A program made the translations under genes and the position numbers. Below the pieces are notes generated by a model. It saw only the letters and a program-made list of their open reading frames with translations. It was not told the DNA's origin and made no database searches. A stretch of 64,000 nucleotides of DNA, taken from contig NZ_CP011120.1 of assembly GCF_001628715.1 (NCBI RefSeq), forward strand, positions 186,001 to 250,000. Reading direction: 5' to 3'. Of the stretch, positions 1,967 through 14,601 are shown piece after piece. Each line of letters opens with the position of its first letter. Position 1 is the first letter of the stretch. This DNA is from Acetobacter oryzifermentans. GTDB lineage: Bacteria; Pseudomonadota; Alphaproteobacteria; Acetobacterales; Acetobacteraceae.

Positions 1967-3162
1967 GCGCGGCGGGCTTTCTGGAGAAGCTGCTCGGTGG
2001 GGCTGAGGTGGCTTGGGAGCCTTTGGGGGAAATCGCTTCAGTACAAAGAGGAGCCTCACCCCGGCCAATTTCAAAATTTATAACGAGCGATGAAAATGGT
2101 GTCCCGTGGATTAAAATCGGCGACACTGCGCCAAAGTCAAAGTATGTTACTAAAACTGCCGAAAAAATTACGCCAGATGGAGCGAAGAAGTCACGACTTC
2201 TCAGTAAAGGCGATTTTATTATCTCCAATTCTATGAGTTTTGGACGGCCTTACATTCTGGGTATCGATGGAGCAATCCACGATGGCTGGGCCTCTGTCAG
2301 CGAATTTAAAAGCAAACTAAACTCAGATTTCTTGTACCATTATCTATCATCTCATTCTGTTCAGAATTATTGGCTCACGAAAATCAACAGCGGGTCCGTA
2401 AGCAATCTAAATTCTAAGCTTATTCAATCTTTGCTTATCCCCATCCCATGCCCGAATAATCCAGAAAAATCGCTGGCGATACAGGGGGAAATTGTCCGGA
2501 TTCTCGACAGCTTCACCGAGCTTACCACCGAGCTTACCACCGAGCTTACCCAGCGTAAAAAGCAATACAACCACTACCGCGAACAACTTCTGACCTTCGA
2601 TGAAGATGAGGTAAAGTGGAAGACAATAGGTGAAGTTTTTGATATGCGTGCAGGCAGGCACATCAATGCAAAAGATATTCAAAGTGAGCCCGACGATCAG
2701 CATCAAATTAGATGTTACGGGGGAAATGGTATTCGTGGTTACGTCCAAGAGAAAAGCCATGATGGCGATCACCTCTTAATAGGTCGCCAAGGTGCGTGGT
2801 GTGGAAATGTTCAGCGGGAAAAGGGGCAGTTCTATGCAACCGAGCACGCTATTGTTGTCACCGCTGATAAAGGTATGGATGTGGATTGGGCTTTTCACAT
2901 GCTTTCATTTATGAACCTTAATCAATACGCCTCTACATCGGGCATTCCGGGGCTTGCCGTAGGAAACATTAAAAAGCTGGCTATTCCAGTTCCACCTTTG
3001 CGCGAACAAGTTCGAGTTTCCGCAATCCTTGATAAGTTCGACACTTTGACAACTTCGATCAGCGAAGGCTTGCCCCGCGAAATCGAGCTGCGCGAAAAGC
3101 AATATGCTTGGTACCGCGATCAGCTGCTGAGCTTTCCCAAGCCTGATGTAGAGTCGGCGTAA
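1963..3162 (+). CDS. hsdS: Type I restriction specificity subunit HsdS
   Basis: DNA-recognition subunit of the type I complex. At 399 residues it has the usual layout of two target-recognition domains, each followed by a conserved helical spacer: the first ends near residue 208 ([14 protein letters not shown]) and the second at the C-terminus ([17 protein letters not shown]). The central spacer holds three perfect tandem TELT units (residues 185-196). In the EcoR124 family the number of TAEL units sets the distance between the two half-sites, so the copy number here likely defines the spacer of the target. The recognition sequence cannot be read from the gene. The ATGA overlap with hsdM indicates co-translation. 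Confidence 0.93.
2515..2550 (+). repeat. Three perfect 12-bp tandem repeats in hsdS
   Basis: The unit ACCGAGCTTACC occurs three times head to tail (2515-2526, 2527-2538, 2539-2550), in frame, encoding TELT x3 in the helical linker of HsdS. Slippage by one unit keeps the frame and would alter linker length by four residues, which in EcoR124-type enzymes changes the recognised spacer by one base. Confidence 0.95.
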
Positions 3163-4323
3163 TTGGGACAGACGCTAACCAAAATCGCTGAAACGCTGCG
3201 AGACGCCTCCAAAAAGGTGCAGTTGATTTATGCGTTCAATGCCACCGGCAAAACGCGCCTTTCGCGCGAGTTCAGAAAGCTGATCGACCCGAAGATCGAG
3301 GAGCAGGACGACGGTCGTCGCCCCAAGGTATTATATTATAACGCCTTCACCGAAGACCTGTTCTATTGGGATAATGATCTCGATGGCGACATTAACCGGA
3401 AACTCCGCATCCAGCCGAACGCCTTTACCAAGTCAGCCTTTGAAGATCTCGGGCTCGACTTCAATGTCATCACCGTTTTTCAGCAGTATACTCAACGAAA
3501 CCTGATGCCTCACTTCAATCAGGAGTACATGATTAATGGCAAGGACGGTAAAGAGGTTACCATTCCGGCATTTTCCGAAGTGACCTTCTCGCTCGAACGT
3601 GGCACCGATACGAGCACTGGCAATCTGAAAATCTCCAAGGGCGAAGAGAGTAACTTCATCTGGAGCATTTTCTACTGCCTCTTGGATCAGGTGATCAGCA
3701 CGCGCAACATACTCGAAGTTGAGGATCGCGAGACGGACCAGTTCAATGATCTGAAATATATCTTCATCGATGATCCGGTGAGCTCACTCGACGAAAACCA
3801 CCTCATTCAGCTTGCCGTCGATATCGCGGTTCTGATCAGGAGAAGTGACAACACGAATGGCCTGAAATTCATCATCACAACGCACAGCCCACTTTTTTTC
3901 AACGTGCTGTACAACGAGTTAAAGAAACCAGCGAGTTACATGCTGAAACGGTTTGATGATGAAACGTTCGAGCTAGAAAAGACGGACGGCGATTCAAACA
4001 AGAGCTTTTCTTATCATCTTTACCTGAAGAAAACGCTGGAGGAGGCAATCGAAGCGGACAAGATTGAGCGCTACCACTTCACCCTGCTACGCAATCTCTA
4101 TGAAAAGACATCGAATTTTCTGGGCTATGAAAAATGGTCCGACCTGCTGCCAGGCGACCAGAAGCTTTACCTGCAGCGCATCATTAATTTTACGAGTCAT
4201 AGCTCGCTCTCCAACGAAGTCATCGCCGAGCTAACATCGCCAGAAAAGCAGACGGTGAAGCTCCTGCTGGAGCATTTGAGCAAAAATTACAAATACTATC
4301 AGAAAGAGGCCCAAAATGCCTGA
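3163..4323 (+). CDS. prrC: PrrC-type anticodon nuclease
   Basis: Homologue of the E. coli PrrC anticodon nuclease, a suicide-type phage defence that cleaves tRNA-Lys when the linked type I enzyme is disabled by a phage. The 386 residues contain an ABC-like NTPase (P-loop AFNATGKT at 24-31, signature SKGEES at 158-163, Walker [11 protein letters not shown] at 201-210) and the C-terminal nuclease domain. The catalytic triad known as Arg320, Glu324 and His356 in E. coli aligns with R310, E314 and H346 (LLRNLYEK and [11 protein letters not shown]), with identical spacing. The start is TTG directly after the hsdS stop: the N-terminus [12 protein letters not shown] matches the family's start. It lies between hsdS and hsdR and overlaps hsdR by 8 bases, so it is in the operon. 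Confidence 0.93.
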
Positions 4324-7300
4324 GCAGACGACGCCCATTGCTGAGACCAATCGCTTTATCGTTCTCGATAAATATGTGCGCGCCTGGGAGGCGGCTGACA
4401 GCTATCAGTCTGAGACCGACCTAGAGTGCGAGCTTGTTCAGGACCTGCAAAATCAGGGTTATGAGTATCGGCCTGACCTGAAATTAACCAAAGCCCTGCT
4501 GGTGAATGCTCGCGTTCAGCTGCAAGCTCTCAACGATGTTCAATTTACAGATAAGGAATGGGCGCGCTTCGTTGAGACCTATCTGGATCGACCCAGCGAC
4601 ACTGCCACTGACAAGACTCGCAAGATCCACGACGACTACATCTTTGACTTCGTTTTTGATGATGGCCGTATACAGAACATCTATCTGGTCAATAAGGCCA
4701 ATGTTTGCCGCAACAAGGTTCAGGTCATCAAGCAGTTCGAGCAAGCGGGCACTCATGCGAACCGCTACGATGTGACCATTCTGGTAAACGGGCTGCCGTT
4801 GGTGCAAGTCGAGCTGAAAAAGCGTGGCGTTGCCATTCGGGAAGCGTTCAACCAGATCCACCGCTACAGCAAAGAAAGCTTCAACTCGGACAATTCGCTC
4901 TTTAAATACCTTCAGATCTTCGTAATCTCGAACGGTACGGATACGCGCTATTTCGCCAACACGACCAAGCGCGACAAGAACAGCTTTGACTTCACGATGA
5001 ATTGGGCGCAGGCCGATAACAGCCTGATCCGGGACCTGAAGGATTTTACGGCGACCTTCTTTGAAAAGCGCACGTTGTTGAACGTGTTGCTGAACTATTC
5101 CGTTTTCGACGTCAGTGACACGCTGCTGGTGATGCGCCCCTATCAGATCGCGGCGACTGAGCGAATCTTACGAAAGATTAAAAGCTCGTTCGAAGGCACG
5201 ACGCTTAGTAAACCGGAAAGCGGCGGATACATCTGGCACACTACGGGCTCAGGCAAAACGCTGACCAGCTTCAAGGCGGCCCGCCTTGCCACGCAGCTCG
5301 ACTTCATCGACAAGGTCTTTTTCGTGGTCGACCGCAAGGACCTCGATTACCAGACGATGAAGGAGTATCAGCGTTTCTCCCCGGATAGCGTCAATGGATC
5401 GGACAGCACCGCCGGATTGAAGCGGAACCTCTCCAAGGATGACAACAAGATCATCGTCACGACTATCCAGAAGCTTAACAATCTGATGAAGAGCGAGGGC
5501 GACCTGCCGGTCTATACCCAGCGCGTCGTCTTCATTTTCGACGAGTGCCATCGCAGCCAGTTTGGTGAGGCACAGAAGAACCTCAAGCGGAAGTTCAAAC
5601 ATTTCTGCCAGTTCGGCTTCACCGGCACGCCGATCTTTCCGGAAAATGCTTCGGGTGCGGAGACGACGGCCAGCGTATTCGGGAGCGAACTTCATTCCTA
5701 TGTGATCACCGACGCGATCCGCGACGAGAAGGTGCTGAAATTCAAGGTCGACTACAACAATGTGCGCCCTCAGTTTAAAGCGATCGAAACCGAACAGGAT
5801 GAAAAGAAGCTGACCGCCGCCGAAAACCGGCAAGCTCTTCAGCATCCCAAACGAATCGCTGAAATCTCCCAGTACATTCTTGATAACTTCCGCCGCAAGA
5901 CGCATCGTCTCTATGGAGACAATAAAGGCTTCAACGCCATGTTCGCGGTGAGTAGCGTTGATGCTGCCAAGCTCTATTATGAAAAGCTGAATGCGCTGCA
6001 GGACGGTAGCGATAAGCCGTTGAAGATCGCGACCATCTTTTCATTCGCCGCCAACGAAGAACAGGATGCCATTGGCGATATTCCTGACGAGAGTTTTGAA
6101 GTTTCGGCGCTGAATAGCAGCGCCAAGGAATTTCTTAACACTGCAATTGCGGACTACAACGCCTGTTTCCGAACGAATTTCAGCGTCGATAGTAAGGGCT
6201 TCCAGAATTATTACCGGGATCTGGCAAAACGGGTGAAGTCCAAGGAAGTCGACCTACTCATTGTGGTTGGTATGTTCCTGACCGGCTTCGACGCGCCAAC
6301 CCTGAATACACTATTCGTAGACAAAAATCTGCGTTTTCACGGCCTTATACAAGCCTACTCCCGTACCAACCGCATTTATGATGCGACCAAGTCCTTTGGC
6401 AATATTGTTACCTTCCGCGACCTGGAAGAGGCGACCGTCAAGGCAATCACACTCTTTGGCAACGCCAATACCAAGAATGTCGTTCTGGAGAAGAGCTACT
6501 CAGAATACATGGAAGGTTTTACGGACCAGACGACAGGCGAAGCGCGGCGAGGCTTTATCGATGTCGTCCGTGAGTTGAAAGAGCGTTTCCCGGATCCCAC
6601 CGCCATCGAGAAGGAAGCGGACAAAAAGGCCTTTGCAAAGCTGTTCGGCGAGTATCTCCGTGTTGAGAATATCCTTCAGAATTATGATGAGTTCTCCAAC
6701 CTGCGAGAGTTTCAGGAGATCGACGAGAGTGACCCCGAAGCGGTGAGAGCGTTCAAGGAGCAGCATCATTTGAGTGATGATGACGTTGACGAGCTCAAGA
6801 GCATCGAAATGCCTGCTGACCGAAAGGTCCAGGACTACCGTTCGACCTACAATGACATTCGGGATTGGCTTCGCCGCGAAAAGGCTAGTGCCGAGCAGGT
6901 TGAGTCAACGATCGACTGGGATGATGTCGTCTTTGAGGTCGACCTTTTGAAATCTCAGGAAATAAATCTGGATTACATTCTTGAGCTAATCTTCGAGTAC
7001 AACAAAAAAACGAAGAGCAAGTCAGAACTCGTTGACGAAGTTCGTCGTGTCATTCGCGCCAGCATTGGTAACCGCGCGAAAGAAAGCCTTATCGTCGATT
7101 TCATCAATCAGACAAACCTAGATGAACTGGGGGACAAGGCGGGGGTGATTGAGGCTTTTTTTGCTTTCGCACAAGCCGAACAATGCCGGGAAGCGGAAGA
7201 ACTGATAACCGATGAAAAATTGAACGCGGAGGCCGCCAAGCGCTACATTGCGACGTCGATCAAGCGCGAATATGCGAGCGAAAACGGCACAGAGTTGAAC

Positions 7301-7417
7301 TCGATCCTTCCCAAAATGAGCCCGCTTAATCCACAATACCTGACCAAAAAAAGAGATGTGTTCCAGCGCATCTCTGCGTTCGTTGAAAAGTTCAAGGGTG
7401 TGGGTGGGAAAATTTAG
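4316..7417 (+). CDS. hsdR: Type I restriction endonuclease subunit HsdR
   Basis: Motor and nuclease subunit of the type I complex (1033 residues, normal length). The N-terminal PD-(D/E)xK nuclease is seen as D152 (YDVTIL) followed by E166-x-K168 (QVELKKRG). The SF2 helicase follows: Walker A TTGSGKT near residue 308, DECH near 408, the FTGTP motif III, and motif [10 protein letters not shown] near residue 680. The C-terminal third is helical and mediates assembly. It starts inside the end of prrC (8-base overlap). About 160 bases separate its stop from the opposing integrase; they contain only a weak TTATGGT/ACCATAA inverted repeat. Confidence 0.95.
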
Positions 7418-9404: not shown

Positions 9405-9602
9405 GGAATCGGTCAAGGCTTTTGATTGTGACTAACGAGGAGCGATATCAAGCGTTGAATGTGGCAATATGCCACCCTTCGATGTGGCGTATCTGGCTAG
9501 AAAATAGCAATTTACTTTTAGACCTGCGTTGCACGCACATGTAGTAATACAAGGTCTTCTTTCTGGGTGGCCAATTGTTACAGTGTGTGCTCTATCGAAT
9601 GC

Positions 9603-10529
9603 ATGGCTATTCGAATCGTTGAGTTTTTTGGTTACACTCCAGGGAGTTCCGCAGGGAAAGCGTTCGCTGATCGCAAGCACTGTCCCTTCGTTGATGATTC
9701 TTGCCTAAAGCCTAGACATGGAGCGTGTACTCTTCAGGCTCTTAAAGATGTCGAAGCGGTTATTTGTTGTCCGAACAGACTTTACGCGAACAAATTTCGT
9801 CTTCTGAACGATATTGGCCAAATAGCTTTTGGCGAAGACATCCAGATCATAACTGCAAAAGAAGTTAAAATCCGACTAGCTTCAGGGGCGATGACCGGAC
9901 ACGAAGTGGTGGCATTTGGAAAATACTGGGGGGGCGAACTTCCTCTTCCCAAAGGAAGCAAAAGTGACACAAAAAAGGTCTCTGGTTCCTATTATATGGA
10001 CTGGATTTTAGCGAAAGTCAGCACGGATGGAACAGTAAACGAACTTACAGCCATAGAAGTCCAGACAATTGATACAACTGGAAATTATTCAGCTCAGTCC
10101 GAGGCCTTTTTCCAAGGATTGCCCTTCGTCGACGCACAAGGGCGTAACCCAGGATACAGTAATTCAGGCTTTAACTGGGAAAACGTCAATAAGCGCATTC
10201 TTCCTCAGGTTATTTACAAGGGACATGCTTTAAGACGAGAGCCAAAATGCACTAAAGGTCTTTTCTTCTGTTGTCCAAGAGCTGTTTTTGAGCGTATCCG
10301 GGATCGCTTGGGTAATTCGCTCCATGAGTATCATCCATCATCTGGAACTATCACTTTTGTCAGTTATTCTCTTGACGAAGATGCCATTCCCAATCGCCCT
10401 TATCCCCTTTCCTTAGTAGAGACCTTCACGACGACGGTGGATCAGGTTTGTCTTGCGTTCAGTTCACCGCAAAATCTCCCACCAGCGTCTGTTTACGAAC
10501 AGGCGATCAATGCCAGCTTACGCAAATAA
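9603..10529 (+). CDS. NotI-family type II restriction endonuclease
   Basis: Similar over its whole length to NotI, the 8-base cutter (GCGGCCGC). Recognisable shared segments are IVEFFG at the N-terminus; the cysteine-rich metal site C27, C34, C42 and C55/C56 (HCPF, SCLK, ACTLQ, CCPNRL), as in NotI's Cys4 iron-binding fold; the block from VVAF through GGELPL; and the PD-(D/E)xK-like core with E112, D133 (MDWILAKV) and E152-x-Q154 (AIEVQTID). Numbering is from ATG 9603 (308 residues), which fits the NotI start; GTG 9567 would add 12 residues. It converges on the C5 methyltransferase gene with a 12-base 3' overlap, forming an RM pair. The exact specificity is not certain. Confidence 0.85.
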   Translation: MAIRIVEFFGYTPGSSAGKAFADRKHCPFVDDSCLKPRHGACTLQALKDVEAVICCPNRLYANKFRLLNDIGQIAFGEDIQIITAKEVKIRLASGAMTGHEVVAFGKYWGGELPLPKGSKSDTKKVSGSYYMDWILAKVSTDGTVNELTAIEVQTIDTTGNYSAQSEAFFQGLPFVDAQGRNPGYSNSGFNWENVNKRILPQVIYKGHALRREPKCTKGLFFCCPRAVFERIRDRLGNSLHEYHPSSGTITFVSYSLDEDAIPNRPYPLSLVETFTTTVDQVCLAFSSPQNLPPASVYEQAINASLRK

Positions 10530-11675
10530 ACGTAACTCCGGAAACTTTTCTGGTTTTTTGGTTTTTGTGATGCGTTTCGTTGTAGCTTCGAAGGGGAGTG
10601 CTTCAGCGATCGCTTTCCCCATCAATGGAGGAACCGCGTTTCCTACCTGAACAAATTGCTCCGTCCGGTTTCCACTAAATACAAATGTATCCGGGAATGA
10701 TTGCAGTCTGGAGGCCTCCCTTACGGTGAAACTACGGTTCTGCTCAGGATGAATGTAGGCACCCCAATGAAGATCGCATTTGGTCAAAATGGTGCAGGAA
10801 AGATCATCCTTCCTTGGGCGTCCATACCGTTTCGTATGATCGCTTCTCTTCGCTCTTTTCATTCCGGCTGGCAGTAGTTCAAACGGAATATCTCTCCATG
10901 ATCCGCCTTCAGGAATGTGCATCATCCGTTGTACATTAACAGCCGACAGTCTTGGAGCGGAATGATTGGCCACCCGCACAACTTTTCCTCTCAGAATGCT
11001 CTGGTAGGTATTTTTCGGCTTGCTCCGATAGCGGAGGCCTTCGGCGGATTCACCATTTTCGAGGACAGGAAGATCAGAAATCGCATCCCATATGGTTACA
11101 TACGGCAATAGGTCTGGACCATGTGTTGGCTTAGGAAATCGAATTAGCTGATCCGTCCGGGTGGCTATAAACACCATTCGACGGCGTGCTTGCGGAACCC
11201 CATAGTCTTCCGCTTTAAGCACTTGCATCTCTACCCGATAACCAAGTTTACCCATCCCACGTCGTATTTCTTCGACAATGGCACCGTTTGCGATACTGGT
11301 GATGCCGGATACATTCTCCATCACCAACCACTTAGGTTTTAGACCAGAAACAATTCGCAGATATTCCCGAAACAGACCGGCTCTGGGATCGTGGACTCCC
11401 CTTTGATGGTTATAGACGGAATATCCTTGGCAGGGAGGACCTCCCACCAGAACATCAAGTTCACCAGGGCGCAGGCCTGTGCGGAAGAGTAGAGTCTCTG
11501 CACTTACATCTTGGATCGGACCGCCCAGAAAAATAGCTTCAGGGTGTGTCCGGACAAATGTCTCCCCGGCCTTTATATCGATATCCTGGCCAGCAAGCAC
11601 CCTAAAGCCCGCCTGTCGGAAGCCCTCACTTAGCCCCCCGGCTCCACAAAAGAGATCAATTACTGTCCCACGCAT
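10518..11675 (-). CDS. DNA (cytosine-5) methyltransferase of type II RM system
   Basis: C5-cytosine methyltransferase of 385 residues. Motif I (IDLFCGAGGLSEGF, residues 6-19), the catalytic Pro-Cys motif IV (GGPPCQGYS, Cys82), motif VI ENV at 119-121 and motif VIII QARRRM are present. A target-recognition region lies between about residues 200 and 310, and the C-terminal motifs IX-X include REASRLQSFPD and QVGNAVPP. Its tail-to-tail arrangement with the NotI-like endonuclease makes it the cognate protective enzyme. The start ATGCGTGGG at 11675 places motif I right at the N-terminus, as is usual. About 240 bases without a gene follow before the next fragment. Confidence 0.93.
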   Translation of the reverse strand: MRGTVIDLFCGAGGLSEGFRQAGFRVLAGQDIDIKAGETFVRTHPEAIFLGGPIQDVSAETLLFRTGLRPGELDVLVGGPPCQGYSVYNHQRGVHDPRAGLFREYLRIVSGLKPKWLVMENVSGITSIANGAIVEEIRRGMGKLGYRVEMQVLKAEDYGVPQARRRMVFIATRTDQLIRFPKPTHGPDLLPYVTIWDAISDLPVLENGESAEGLRYRSKPKNTYQSILRGKVVRVANHSAPRLSAVNVQRMMHIPEGGSWRDIPFELLPAGMKRAKRSDHTKRYGRPRKDDLSCTILTKCDLHWGAYIHPEQNRSFTVREASRLQSFPDTFVFSGNRTEQFVQVGNAVPPLMGKAIAEALPFEATTKRITKTKKPEKFPELRLFA

Positions 11676-11913: not shown

Positions 11914-12196
11914 TCAGGTATGTTCTGATTTGACAGAGTTCTCATTAAGAATACGGTAAATGTGAGTTTTTGAAATCCCCGTTTGTCGCATGATTTCAGC
12001 GACACCAAGACCCTGAGCCTTCAGGTCTCTCACTCGATCATGGTCATAAGATTGTTTACGGCCCTTATAGACACCTTCCGCCTTGGCTTTGGCGATACCT
12101 TCAAGCTGTCGCTCCCTTCTCAATTCAGTCTCAAATTGAGCAAAGACACCAAGCAGATTCAGGAACATTTTTCCTACAGCGTTGGATGTATCTATG
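11914..12196 (-). pseudogene. C-terminal part of serine resolvase split by IS66 element
   Basis: The frame from TSNAVGKMFLNLLGVF through the helix-turn-helix tail (GLGVAEIMRQTGISKTHIYR) is the C-terminal half of a Pin/resolvase-type serine recombinase, with the E-helix and DNA-binding domain. Its N-terminal half is at 14699-14987. Removing the insertion and one 8-bp target copy restores a continuous 187-residue protein (QQPID joined to TSNAVGK). This fragment lacks the catalytic serine and cannot act alone. Confidence 0.9.
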
Positions 12197-12223
12197 GTAA
12201 CGGGCCGTTCTGGGCCGCCTTGA

Positions 12224-13834
12224 TTATGCGGCCTGTCTGTGCGGTGTATTCAGGGGTTGCCAATTCCATGGCAATAGTTCGTGGAGCCGATTGATCTTGT
12301 GCTCGTTGATACGGGCCAGGACGTCGGCGAGGTAATCGTGCGGGTTGATGCCTGAGAGTTTTGCGCTTTCGATAAGCGTCATGGCATCAGCGATGTTGTC
12401 GCCCCCGGCGTCTGAACCGGCAAACAGATAGTTTTTCCGCCCGATGCATACCGGTCGTATGGCCCGTTCGGCAGGATTGTTGTCGATGGCAACACGACCA
12501 TCTTCGAGGAAGAGGGTAAAGGCTGCCCACCGGTTGAGCGCATAACGGATTGCTTTTGCCAGTTCCCCCTTGCCTGGGATACGGGCGAGCTGTGTTTCGC
12601 ACCATGCGTGGAATGCTGTGACACGAGGGCGGCTTTTTTCCTGTCGGACAGCCAGACGATACGGAGCAGGAGACCCGGTGAGCTGCCGCTCGATATCGTA
12701 GAGTTCCCCGATCTGCTCGAGTGCTTCCCTTGCGATTGTCGAATCACTGCCCTTCCAGACATCATGGAAGGCCCTGCGGAGATGAGCCCAGCAGGCCGCT
12801 TCGCGCACATGCACGGTTCCCGTTGCATCGGGTTTATACAGATCCCTGAACCCCGCGTAGGCGTCAGCCTGCAGAATGCCCCGGAACTGTGCCAGATGGG
12901 TCTGGGGATTGATCCCCTTGCGATCGGGAGAGAACCAGTAGGCCACGGCGGGCGGATCACTCCCGCCCCAGGGGCGGGGATCGCGCAGATAGGTCCAGAT
13001 CCGCCCTTCCTTCACACCACGTGGTTTACCAGCCTGGCGCAGACGGGAATCAAGAACCTGGATGGGTGTATCATCGGCATGCAGCAGGTCTGCCCCAACG
13101 ACATCCTGACGGATCAGATCTGTGAGAGGACGCAGAACGGCAACGGCCTGACCACACCAGTCGATCAGGGTTGAACGGGGAATGTCCACACCCTGACGGG
13201 AAAAGATCTCATTCTGACGATAAAGCGGAATGTGATCATCGAATTTTGAGACCAGGATATGGGCCAGCAGCCCGGGGCCAGCCATGCCCCGTGGGACAGG
13301 GCGCGACGGTGCTTCAGGCTGTACCATTGTTTCGCAATGACGGCAGGATTTCTTCAGCCGTGCCGTTTCGACAACTTTCAGTTTTGCCGCAATAAAGTCC
13401 AGTATTTCGGTGACATCTTCGCCAACGAGGCGTAGGCGACCGCCACAGGTGGGACAGGCCTCGCCCGGGTCGAGAACAATACGCTCCCGTGGTGTCGTGT
13501 CGGAAACCTTTGGTTTGCCGCGCCGTCTGGGGGAAGAGACCACACCATCGCTGTCATCGTGCTCCCTGATGTCAGGAGAAGGATCGGCTGCCGCGATGGC
13601 GATTTTCACATCTTCAAGAAGCAGTTCGAGCTGTTCAATCTCACGGTCTATCTTTTCTGAACTGGCCCCGAATTTCTGTTTCTGAAGACGCGCGATCCGG
13701 ATTTTGAGAGACTGGACAAGAGCTTCATACGCACGGGCTGAAGCGGAAAGCCGAGCCACTTCAGTCTGAAGGGAAACAATCATTTCCCTCAGGATATCTG
13801 GATCATCAGGCAGGACCGCGGGCGCATGCGTCAT
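12224..13834 (-). CDS. tnpC: IS66-family transposase TnpC
   Basis: The 536-residue transposase of the IS66 element. An N-terminal leucine-rich coiled coil (IVSLQTEVARLSASARAYEAL) precedes a Cys-rich zinc-binding region (CPTCGG, CRHCE at about residues 110-170). The DDE catalytic core follows: DLLHADDTPIQVL, DAYAGF, and EDGRVAIDNNPAERAIRP with the family's final acidic residue. The C-terminal IS66 domain is YLADVLARI. The full length suggests a functional enzyme. It is transcribed after tnpB with a 63-base gap. Confidence 0.94.
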   Translation of the reverse strand: MTHAPAVLPDDPDILREMIVSLQTEVARLSASARAYEALVQSLKIRIARLQKQKFGASSEKIDREIEQLELLLEDVKIAIAAADPSPDIREHDDSDGVVSSPRRRGKPKVSDTTPRERIVLDPGEACPTCGGRLRLVGEDVTEILDFIAAKLKVVETARLKKSCRHCETMVQPEAPSRPVPRGMAGPGLLAHILVSKFDDHIPLYRQNEIFSRQGVDIPRSTLIDWCGQAVAVLRPLTDLIRQDVVGADLLHADDTPIQVLDSRLRQAGKPRGVKEGRIWTYLRDPRPWGGSDPPAVAYWFSPDRKGINPQTHLAQFRGILQADAYAGFRDLYKPDATGTVHVREAACWAHLRRAFHDVWKGSDSTIAREALEQIGELYDIERQLTGSPAPYRLAVRQEKSRPRVTAFHAWCETQLARIPGKGELAKAIRYALNRWAAFTLFLEDGRVAIDNNPAERAIRPVCIGRKNYLFAGSDAGGDNIADAMTLIESAKLSGINPHDYLADVLARINEHKINRLHELLPWNWQPLNTPHRQAA

Positions 13835-13897
13835 TATGAAAAAATAGCAGAAAACCCAATAAAAGACAAAAGGTTCTGCACGATCACGCCATAAAAA

Positions 13898-14245
13898 TCA
13901 GGCCACGCGAGACGGTGGCGCAGACCAGGAAGGTCGTCTCCACTCCATGCCTTCCCACAGCATGGCCATCTGTGCGGCTGTCAGGCGTGCAACGCCATCT
14001 GCCGGCGAGGGCCATGGAAAACGTCCTTTCTCAAGCACCTTGTAATAAAGGCAGAACCCCTGACCGTCCCACATCAGAAGCTTGATCCTGTCCCCACGGC
14101 GACCACGAAAGGCAAAGAGCGCTCCCGATGTCGGGTTCTGACGCAGCACGTCCTGTGCCAGTGCAGCCAGACCCGATATCCCCTTGCGCATATCCGTAAC
14201 CCCGCAGGCCAGATAGACGCGCACACCGTTGCCCACGCCAATCAT
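13898..14245 (-). CDS. tnpB: IS66 accessory protein TnpB
   Basis: The 115-residue IS66 Orf2-type accessory protein (VYLACGVTDMRKGISGLAALAQ, then FAFRGRRGDRIKLLMWDGQGFCLYYKVLEKGRF). Its exact role in transposition is not established, but it is required in studied IS66 members. The start overlaps the tnpA stop by 4 bases (ATGA), showing translational coupling. Confidence 0.93.
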   Translation of the reverse strand: MIGVGNGVRVYLACGVTDMRKGISGLAALAQDVLRQNPTSGALFAFRGRRGDRIKLLMWDGQGFCLYYKVLEKGRFPWPSPADGVARLTAAQMAMLWEGMEWRRPSWSAPPSRVA

Positions 14246-14601
14246 GCTGTCTCGGCAATCCGGATGATCTTCGCCAGAAACTCTTCTGCAGGATGTCCAC
14301 TCACCCTGATACTGCGGCCATTACGCAGCATAATGGCCAGCCCTTCATTATCATCGCCAGAGACCAGAGCAGGTGTCTTCACTGCAGCGACAGGAACAAA
14401 CGCCACAGACTGATCCGGGGAAGACAGTCTGTGGCGGAAAGACGTCCGCCATTGGTAAAGATGTTGACGGGTCAGGTCATGCCGACGGGCCACATCCGAT
14501 ACACTTGCCCCGTCCACACCAACTTCAGCCAGTATCGCAAGCTTGCGTTCATCCGACCAGCGGCGACGGCGTTCAACGCCAATCAGGATTTCTTGAGCCA
14601 T
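14242..14601 (-). CDS. tnpA: IS66 accessory protein TnpA (HTH)
   Basis: The 119-residue IS66 Orf1, with an IS3-like N-terminal helix-turn-helix (RRRWSDERKLAILAEVG, then SVSDVARRHDLTRQHLYQWR) followed by a variable linker and a short conserved C-terminal segment. First gene of the IS operon, starting about 100 bases inside the right terminal repeat, where the IS promoter should lie. Confidence 0.92.
   Translation of the reverse strand: MAQEILIGVERRRRWSDERKLAILAEVGVDGASVSDVARRHDLTRQHLYQWRTSFRHRLSSPDQSVAFVPVAAVKTPALVSGDDNEGLAIMLRNGRSIRVSGHPAEEFLAKIIRIAETA

Follow-up and report, generated by a model that had tools for sequence, protein, structure and literature searches.

Background

A reading frame lying within a type I restriction operon of the acetic acid bacterium Acetobacter oryzifermentans raises the question of whether it encodes a PrrC anticodon nuclease, as an earlier interpretation of the bare nucleotides (the sequence-only reading) had proposed, and, if so, which tRNA the protein would cut and what would release it. 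The locus was examined in a window, by which is meant the whole stretch of DNA analysed (64,000 nucleotides; contig NZ_CP011120.1, positions 186,001 to 250,000, forward strand), and coordinates are given in window positions. Papers are cited by PMC number.

Gene content and operon structure

The prrC frame is open for 386 codons, begins directly after the hsdS stop codon (TAA, 3160-3162) and overlaps the start of hsdR (4316) by 8 bases (Table 1). Complete hsdM, hsdS and hsdR genes adjoin it in the order hsdM-hsdS-prrC-hsdR, and the operon was classed as type IC because HsdM matches TIGR00497 and HsdR matches both TIGR00348 and the EcoR124 C-terminal family. Gene order in the window and these family assignments bear out the placement of PrrC between hsdS and hsdR given in the sequence-only reading. 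The identification as PrrC itself is upheld by the PADLOC PrrC model, which matched at full length (residues 3-385, E 2e-140, 466 bits); Pfam returned AAA_13 only, and NCBIfam returned no match at 0.001. A chance open reading frame or a pseudogene was ruled out by the full-length profile match together with the intact frame. Translation of prrC is probably coupled to that of hsdS. Promoter-like and terminator-like sites were no more frequent than in shuffled sequence.

Table 1. Features of the prrC operon (window coordinates, strand and basis of assignment)
Feature	Coordinates	Strand	Basis or remark
hsdM, type I methyltransferase subunit, 515 aa	419..1966	+	TIGR00497, 650 bits against a cut-off of 243; N6_Mtase, HsdM_N
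hsdS, specificity subunit, 399 aa	1963..3162	+	Methylase_S, two stretches; PADLOC Specificity_I, 1e-128
12-base tandem repeat, 3.1 copies, 100% match (TTEL/TELT repeat in centre of HsdS)	2514..2550	+	
prrC, predicted tRNA-Lys anticodon nuclease, 386 aa, TTG start	3163..4323	+	PADLOC PrrC, 2e-140; alignment with E. coli PrrC
TTG start codon, where the Komagataeibacter copy (99% identical) has ATG	3163..3165	+	
Degenerate Walker A, residues 24-31 (AFNATGKT)	3232..3255	+	G29 and K30 invariant in 96 of 96 rows
Candidate 'PrrC box', 15 residues (58-72)	3334..3378	+	96-row alignment
Walker B and D-loop, residues 199-210	3757..3792	+	D203 and D204 invariant in 96 of 96 rows
H241, linchpin histidine of switch region, assigned by position	3883..3885	+	H in 96 of 96 rows
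GDSNKSFSY, residues 276-284, predicted tRNA-Lys recognition peptide (D277 = E. coli D287)	3988..4014	+	
R310, catalytic triad	4090..4092	+	Aligns with E. coli R320
E314, catalytic triad	4102..4104	+	Aligns with E. coli E324
H346, catalytic triad	4198..4200	+	Aligns with E. coli H356
hsdR, type I restriction subunit, 1033 aa, EcoR124-type C-terminus	4316..7417	+	TIGR00348, EcoR124_C, SWI2_SNF2

Conservation of this arrangement was assessed in the best 80 of 533 loci found with two N-terminal peptide patterns. Among these 80, hsdS lay upstream of prrC in 79, hsdR downstream in 79 and hsdM upstream in 74, and in all 8 cases of a missing neighbour prrC was located no more than 1.3 kb from a contig end. 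The 8-base prrC/hsdR overlap was present in 45 of the 79 with hsdR.

The number of repeats in HsdS alters the specificity of type IC enzymes; a different 12-base repeat from that in Table 1 is found in the hsdS gene of locus L004.

Catalytic and NTPase motifs

The predicted protein is 62% identical to the 396-aa E. coli PrrC (locus L015) by global alignment and 55% identical by tblastn. The triad is present as Arg-X3-Glu-X31-His (R310, E314, H346), and the spacing described in the sequence-only reading is confirmed by exact alignment with the E. coli residues, replacement of which abolishes the activity of E. coli PrrC (PMC3014915). The triad reads REH in all 96 aligned rows (94 distinct loci, L002 and L004 being duplicates of L019 and L025) and in all 80 loci that were found through the N-terminal patterns only (best 80 of 533), so the absence of the triad from close homologues, named beforehand as grounds for abandoning the identification, was not observed.

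The ABC-type NTPase motifs are likewise retained as claimed: Walker A, the signature, Walker B and H241 were all aligned, and D210 aligns with E. coli D222. The 'PrrC box' is described as 15 residues long (PMC3014915); residues 58-72 are probably this box, an assignment of our own.

A structure model of the protein had a pLDDT of 70.1 and a pTM of 0.55, with residues 17-38 around Walker A below 50. In a fold search the top matches were Rad50/SMC heads, which by structure alone are weak matches since the best Z was 8.9 and Z values of 7 to 8 are typical of this tool for models with no clear match. The PDB matches cover residues 1-280. Among the fold matches listed, none to a nuclease domain stood out, which does not argue for a new fold. 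Searched by sequence, the PDB gave no match at 0.01 with a profile and chance-level E values of 0.19 and 0.35 with the single sequence. The model weakly supports a Rad50/SMC-like head and nothing further. PrrC has been assigned to the HEPN group (PMC3710099).

The ABC head and the triad are also found in RloC, a relative of PrrC (PMC2610378), and a protein of that kind would act as an effector of DNA-damage stress instead of guarding a restriction enzyme. This is highly improbable for the gene in the window, which encodes only 386 aa with no zinc-hook coiled-coil insert, compared with 658-897 aa for RloC (PMC2610378), and which is tightly linked to its operon, a linkage mostly absent in RloC. 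Identity with RloC itself was rejected on size and on the absent zinc-hook insert.

Start codon

The TTG start immediately after the hsdS stop was correctly described in the sequence-only reading, and none of the relatives compared shows TTG. At the aligned start position the best 80 of 533 loci carry ATG in 77 cases, GTG in 1 and no start codon in 2; the start is ATG in Zymomonas and in both E. coli copies, and TTG, seen in the host genome only, results from T in place of A at position 3163 relative to the Komagataeibacter copy. Among 95 relatives, nine, for the most part distant ones, lack a usable start codon where the first residue aligns. No in-frame start lies upstream of the TTG, where the hsdS stop abuts. 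TTG is a usable bacterial start codon. The private TTG probably lowers the dose of PrrC and could make prrC weakly expressed; it may also be a sequencing error.

The change from ATG to TTG might instead mark lost expression after transfer, leaving a decaying or silent prrC in an operon that performs plain type IC restriction. These start-codon counts, the lack of an upstream in-frame start and the presence of prrC in a single species out of 49 in the genus would agree with such a loss. Against it, the frame is intact, with 9 differences from the Komagataeibacter copy in 1161 bases and no stop or frameshift, and TTG can serve as a start; we consider a silent copy unlikely.

Predicted tRNA target

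In E. coli PrrC, a peptide comprising residues 284-294 binds the anticodon stem-loop of tRNA-Lys and D287 contacts the modified wobble base (PMC3014915). Nine of these 11 residues, D287 included, are identical in the protein from the window, and the two N-terminal residues of the peptide differ (TD for KY); trimming of the E. coli peptide by one residue weakens it (PMC3014915). The D277 position holds D in 91 of 96 rows and in all of the best 80 of 533 loci; L008 has Asn there, and the distant loci L010-L013 have gaps. The Asn in L008 (genome G136) is a natural occurrence at the position aligned with D277; in E. coli, replacement of D287 by Asn is reported to reverse the effect of a missing wobble modification (PMC3014915).

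Forty-seven tRNA matches were found in the host genome, and ARAGORN analysis of all 47 gave one tRNA-Lys(UUU) and one tRNA-Lys(CUU); the list has no tRNA-Ile(GAU) or tRNA-Ala(UGC) and may be incomplete. The anticodon loop of the host tRNA-Lys(UUU) (CTTTTAA) is identical to that of E. coli, and the stem differs. MnmA and MnmE, two enzyme families of wobble U modification, were detected over cut-off in the host; full modification of the wobble base also needs MnmG and MnmC. Patterns of both lysine isoacceptors were present in 18 of 18 family genomes queried, including 13 with a PrrC-like gene. E. coli has tRNA-Lys(UUU) and is not known to have a tRNA-Lys(CUU). In 28 long frames beyond position 14300, AAA accounts for 259 of 449 lysine codons.

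From the 9/11 peptide match, D277 and the presence in the host of a tRNA-Lys(UUU) with an identical loop, the likely target of PrrC is tRNA-Lys(UUU). The statement in the sequence-only reading that the tRNA target is unknown was therefore too cautious, as the same three observations point to this tRNA. Cleavage of another tRNA, or of both lysine isoacceptors, would preserve the logic of the operon with a peptide that reads another anticodon. Such a change of substrate could be accommodated by the two differing peptide residues and by the host tRNA-Lys(CUU), an isoacceptor not known from E. coli; moreover, the peptide varies in sequence among PrrC proteins and their substrates may vary (PMC3014915). 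It is nevertheless quite unlikely, given that the nine core residues including the equivalent of D287 are identical and that the loop of tRNA-Lys(UUU) is the same as in E. coli.

Distribution and transfer of the operon

At least 8000 proteins match PrrC at E 0.001, and two matches in Acetobacter are named anticodon nuclease among the 120 matches listed. PrrC is thus widespread, with annotated copies already present in acetic acid bacteria, and the host gene is one more ordinary representative of this known defence family. At E 1e-20, relatives were present in 13 of 397 sampled family genomes, host included, the host being the one species, of 49 in its genus, with prrC. No match to PrrC was found in 50,697 phage records at E 1e-5. 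No paper was found that connects PrrC with Acetobacter, Acetobacteraceae or Zymomonas, or anticodon nuclease with Komagataeibacter, in a search whose scope took in little of the subscription literature.

The nearest named copy is that of Komagataeibacter saccharivorans, the start codon being among its nine differing prrC bases. DNA of the window was compared with this copy, a Zymomonas plasmid, Gluconobacter oxydans (L025) and two other family genomes. Similarity to these five relatives is contained between ~0.2 kb before the window start and ~7530, and in three of them it begins only at 118 to 305; the exceptions outside the operon are two weak matches of 193 and 403 bases, with 69-70% identity, near 7.6 kb and 5 kb upstream. 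Similarity is thus nearly confined to the operon, which moves for the most part as a block.

Resolvase-like and relaxase-like frames, named from sequence alone, lie upstream of the window; past hsdR, the opposite strand carries a tyrosine integrase. Farther downstream, a NotI-like restriction-domain gene and a convergent C5-cytosine methyltransferase gene (9567-11675) probably form a type II restriction system, and transposon-like genes (11914-14245; an IS66-like pair and a resolvase end, named from sequence) adjoin the defence genes.

Apparent exchange of prrC relative to the hsd genes

The proteins of the operon differ in how closely they resemble those of individual relatives. Compared with Zymomonas pomaceae plasmid pZYMOP02, HsdM is 95.7%, HsdR 95.5% and PrrC 53.8% identical, and compared with plasmid pZZM405 of strain ZM4 the values are 97.5%, 95.5% and 75.4%. 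The drop in DNA identity covers hsdS and prrC against pomaceae and runs from midway through hsdS against ZM4, ending in both near the prrC/hsdR boundary. Against Komagataeibacter, DNA identity is ~0.4 in hsdS and 0.99-1.00 in prrC; since the ~0.4 falls in the hsdS target domains while prrC is 99-100% identical, hsdS has been swapped independently of prrC. The active plasmid type I system of ZM4 was considered as a sister of this operon and rejected, as it consists of hsdRp 025, hsdMp 026 and hsdSp 028 on pZM32, in contrast to the M-S-prrC-R order of pZZM405 (PMC8432527).

Discordance in the opposite direction was also observed: L097 and L094 are 96% identical in PrrC and 81% in HsdR, and E. 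coli and Azotobacter are 85% identical in PrrC and 80.9% in HsdR. Pairwise distances were compared over 73 loci, L002, L004 and L016 having been excluded in advance because they repeat or nearly repeat other loci, and 23 of the remaining 96 loci dropped by length limits for one of the three genes. Spearman correlations were 0.84 for HsdM-HsdR, 0.62 for PrrC-HsdR and 0.64 for PrrC-HsdM. Of 84 pairs with PrrC above 80% identity, 20 had HsdR below 85%, many of the 20 being mild cases; among 55 pairs with both HsdM and HsdR above 90%, PrrC was below 70% in nine, all nine involving L172, a locus added with L171 and L173 after plasmid searches and chosen for looking discordant. PrrC generally changes faster than HsdR (median distance ratio 1.81, range 0.18 to 14.2), which could explain part of the 9/55 count and runs against the 20/84 count.

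The simplest reading of these comparisons is that prrC behaves as an exchangeable cassette, passing between resident operons and having a partly separate history. In a Methylophaga plasmid (HsdR 82% identical) the prrC slot holds a RhuM/Fic-DOC gene, and restriction-modification loci have been described in which PrrC-like genes adjoin RhuM genes and RloC-like genes adjoin DOC genes (PMC3710099). A bolder extension, which we put forward tentatively as possible and on balance doubtful, is that the HsdM/HsdR core forms a fixed alarm socket for which prrC is a plug-in effector, and that AAA codons are selectively silenced in this host. A core ~95% identical would then work with PrrC proteins only about half identical to each other, and the slot would accept other killers such as the RhuM/Fic-DOC protein. 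Sensing would reside in the restriction enzyme, such that one phage antirestriction factor could trip any effector plugged in, and where tRNA-Lys(CUU) exists separately, as in this host, the effector would shut down AAA codons selectively instead of all lysine decoding.

Proposed mode of action

Taken together with what is known of E. coli PrrC, the gene very probably encodes a full-length PrrC in a type IC operon, a latent anticodon nuclease that would be held by Hsd and would cut tRNA-Lys(UUU) upon phage inhibition of the enzyme. Masking by Hsd, release, the wobble cut and the stop in translation are inferred from the E. coli protein. On the model of EcoprrI, PrrC would be held inactive by the Hsd complex (PMC3014915). 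A phage factor that disables the type IC enzyme while on DNA would release PrrC, with GTP hydrolysis and dTTP as co-effector, and the freed nuclease would cut tRNA-Lys(UUU) 5' of the wobble base, so that translation stops. AAA codons would stall, and decoding of AAG would probably survive at first via tRNA-Lys(CUU), as this isoacceptor does not have the wobble U that E. coli PrrC reads.

The sequence-only reading had also held that the activator must differ from that of the E. coli system, T4 Stp, which holds only in part. What Stp attacks is the type IC enzyme, not PrrC itself; unmodified DNA and dTTP also act as effectors (PMC3014915). With the type IC enzyme as the point of attack, another phage antirestriction factor directed against that enzyme could serve. 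No gene annotated stp was found in a 16-kb stretch of the T4 record that holds pseT and rnlA.

The operon is a complete and likely working restriction-guard system in acetic acid bacteria, with which vinegar fermentations suffer phage failures (PMC10893365). The mismatch between the histories of PrrC and HsdR suggests that the masking interface lies in shared residues, and silencing of PrrC by Hsd becomes testable through swaps of natural pairs. A host with two isoacceptors lets total lysine arrest by PrrC be distinguished from AAA-only arrest. The new points are modest: a TTG start seen in this genome alone, a host with two lysine isoacceptors and the apparent movement of prrC between operons.

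Comparison with known systems

One of the closest known systems is E. coli PrrC with EcoprrI, compared here through two E. coli copies (L015 and L016, both with ATG starts) that are not the original prr strain. Shared features are the hsdM-hsdS-prrC-hsdR order, the 8-base prrC/hsdR overlap, the triad, the D287 equivalent, the GDSNKSFSY peptide and the NTPase motifs. The host protein lacks 16 residues ahead of Walker A and a further 8 behind it, and has a longer loop near residue 120; the 62% identity, the TTG start and the two tRNA-Lys isoacceptors of the host are further differences.

The operon as a whole is shared with Komagataeibacter saccharivorans LMG 1582 (L019; PrrC 99%, HsdM 97% and HsdR 98% identical) and with Zymomonas mobilis plasmid pZZM405 (L014; PrrC 75%, HsdM 97%, HsdR 95%), both of which differ from the host in an ATG start, another HsdS and other surroundings.

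A second, distant group of PrrC-like proteins in the family (L010-L013, from genomes G236, G046, G225 and G322) is 30-32% identical, has an R to H distance of 40 as opposed to 36, lacks the GDSN motif and has an hsdM-like gene downstream. PrrC before HsdM is also the order listed for PrrC170 of Klebsiella quasipneumoniae (PMC11555353).

PrrC170 resembles the host protein in being a type I linked PrrC; together with its type I operon it protects against phages T1 and T7, its target being tRNA-Lys (PMC11555353). It differs in being 35% identical to E. coli PrrC and in its gene order, listed as HsdR, HsdS, PrrC, HsdM (PMC11555353). RloC shares the ABC head and the R-E-H triad with PrrC, and is set apart by its zinc-hook insert and greater length, by a triad spaced as Arg-X3-Glu-X36-52-His and by rarely being linked to type I genes (PMC2610378).
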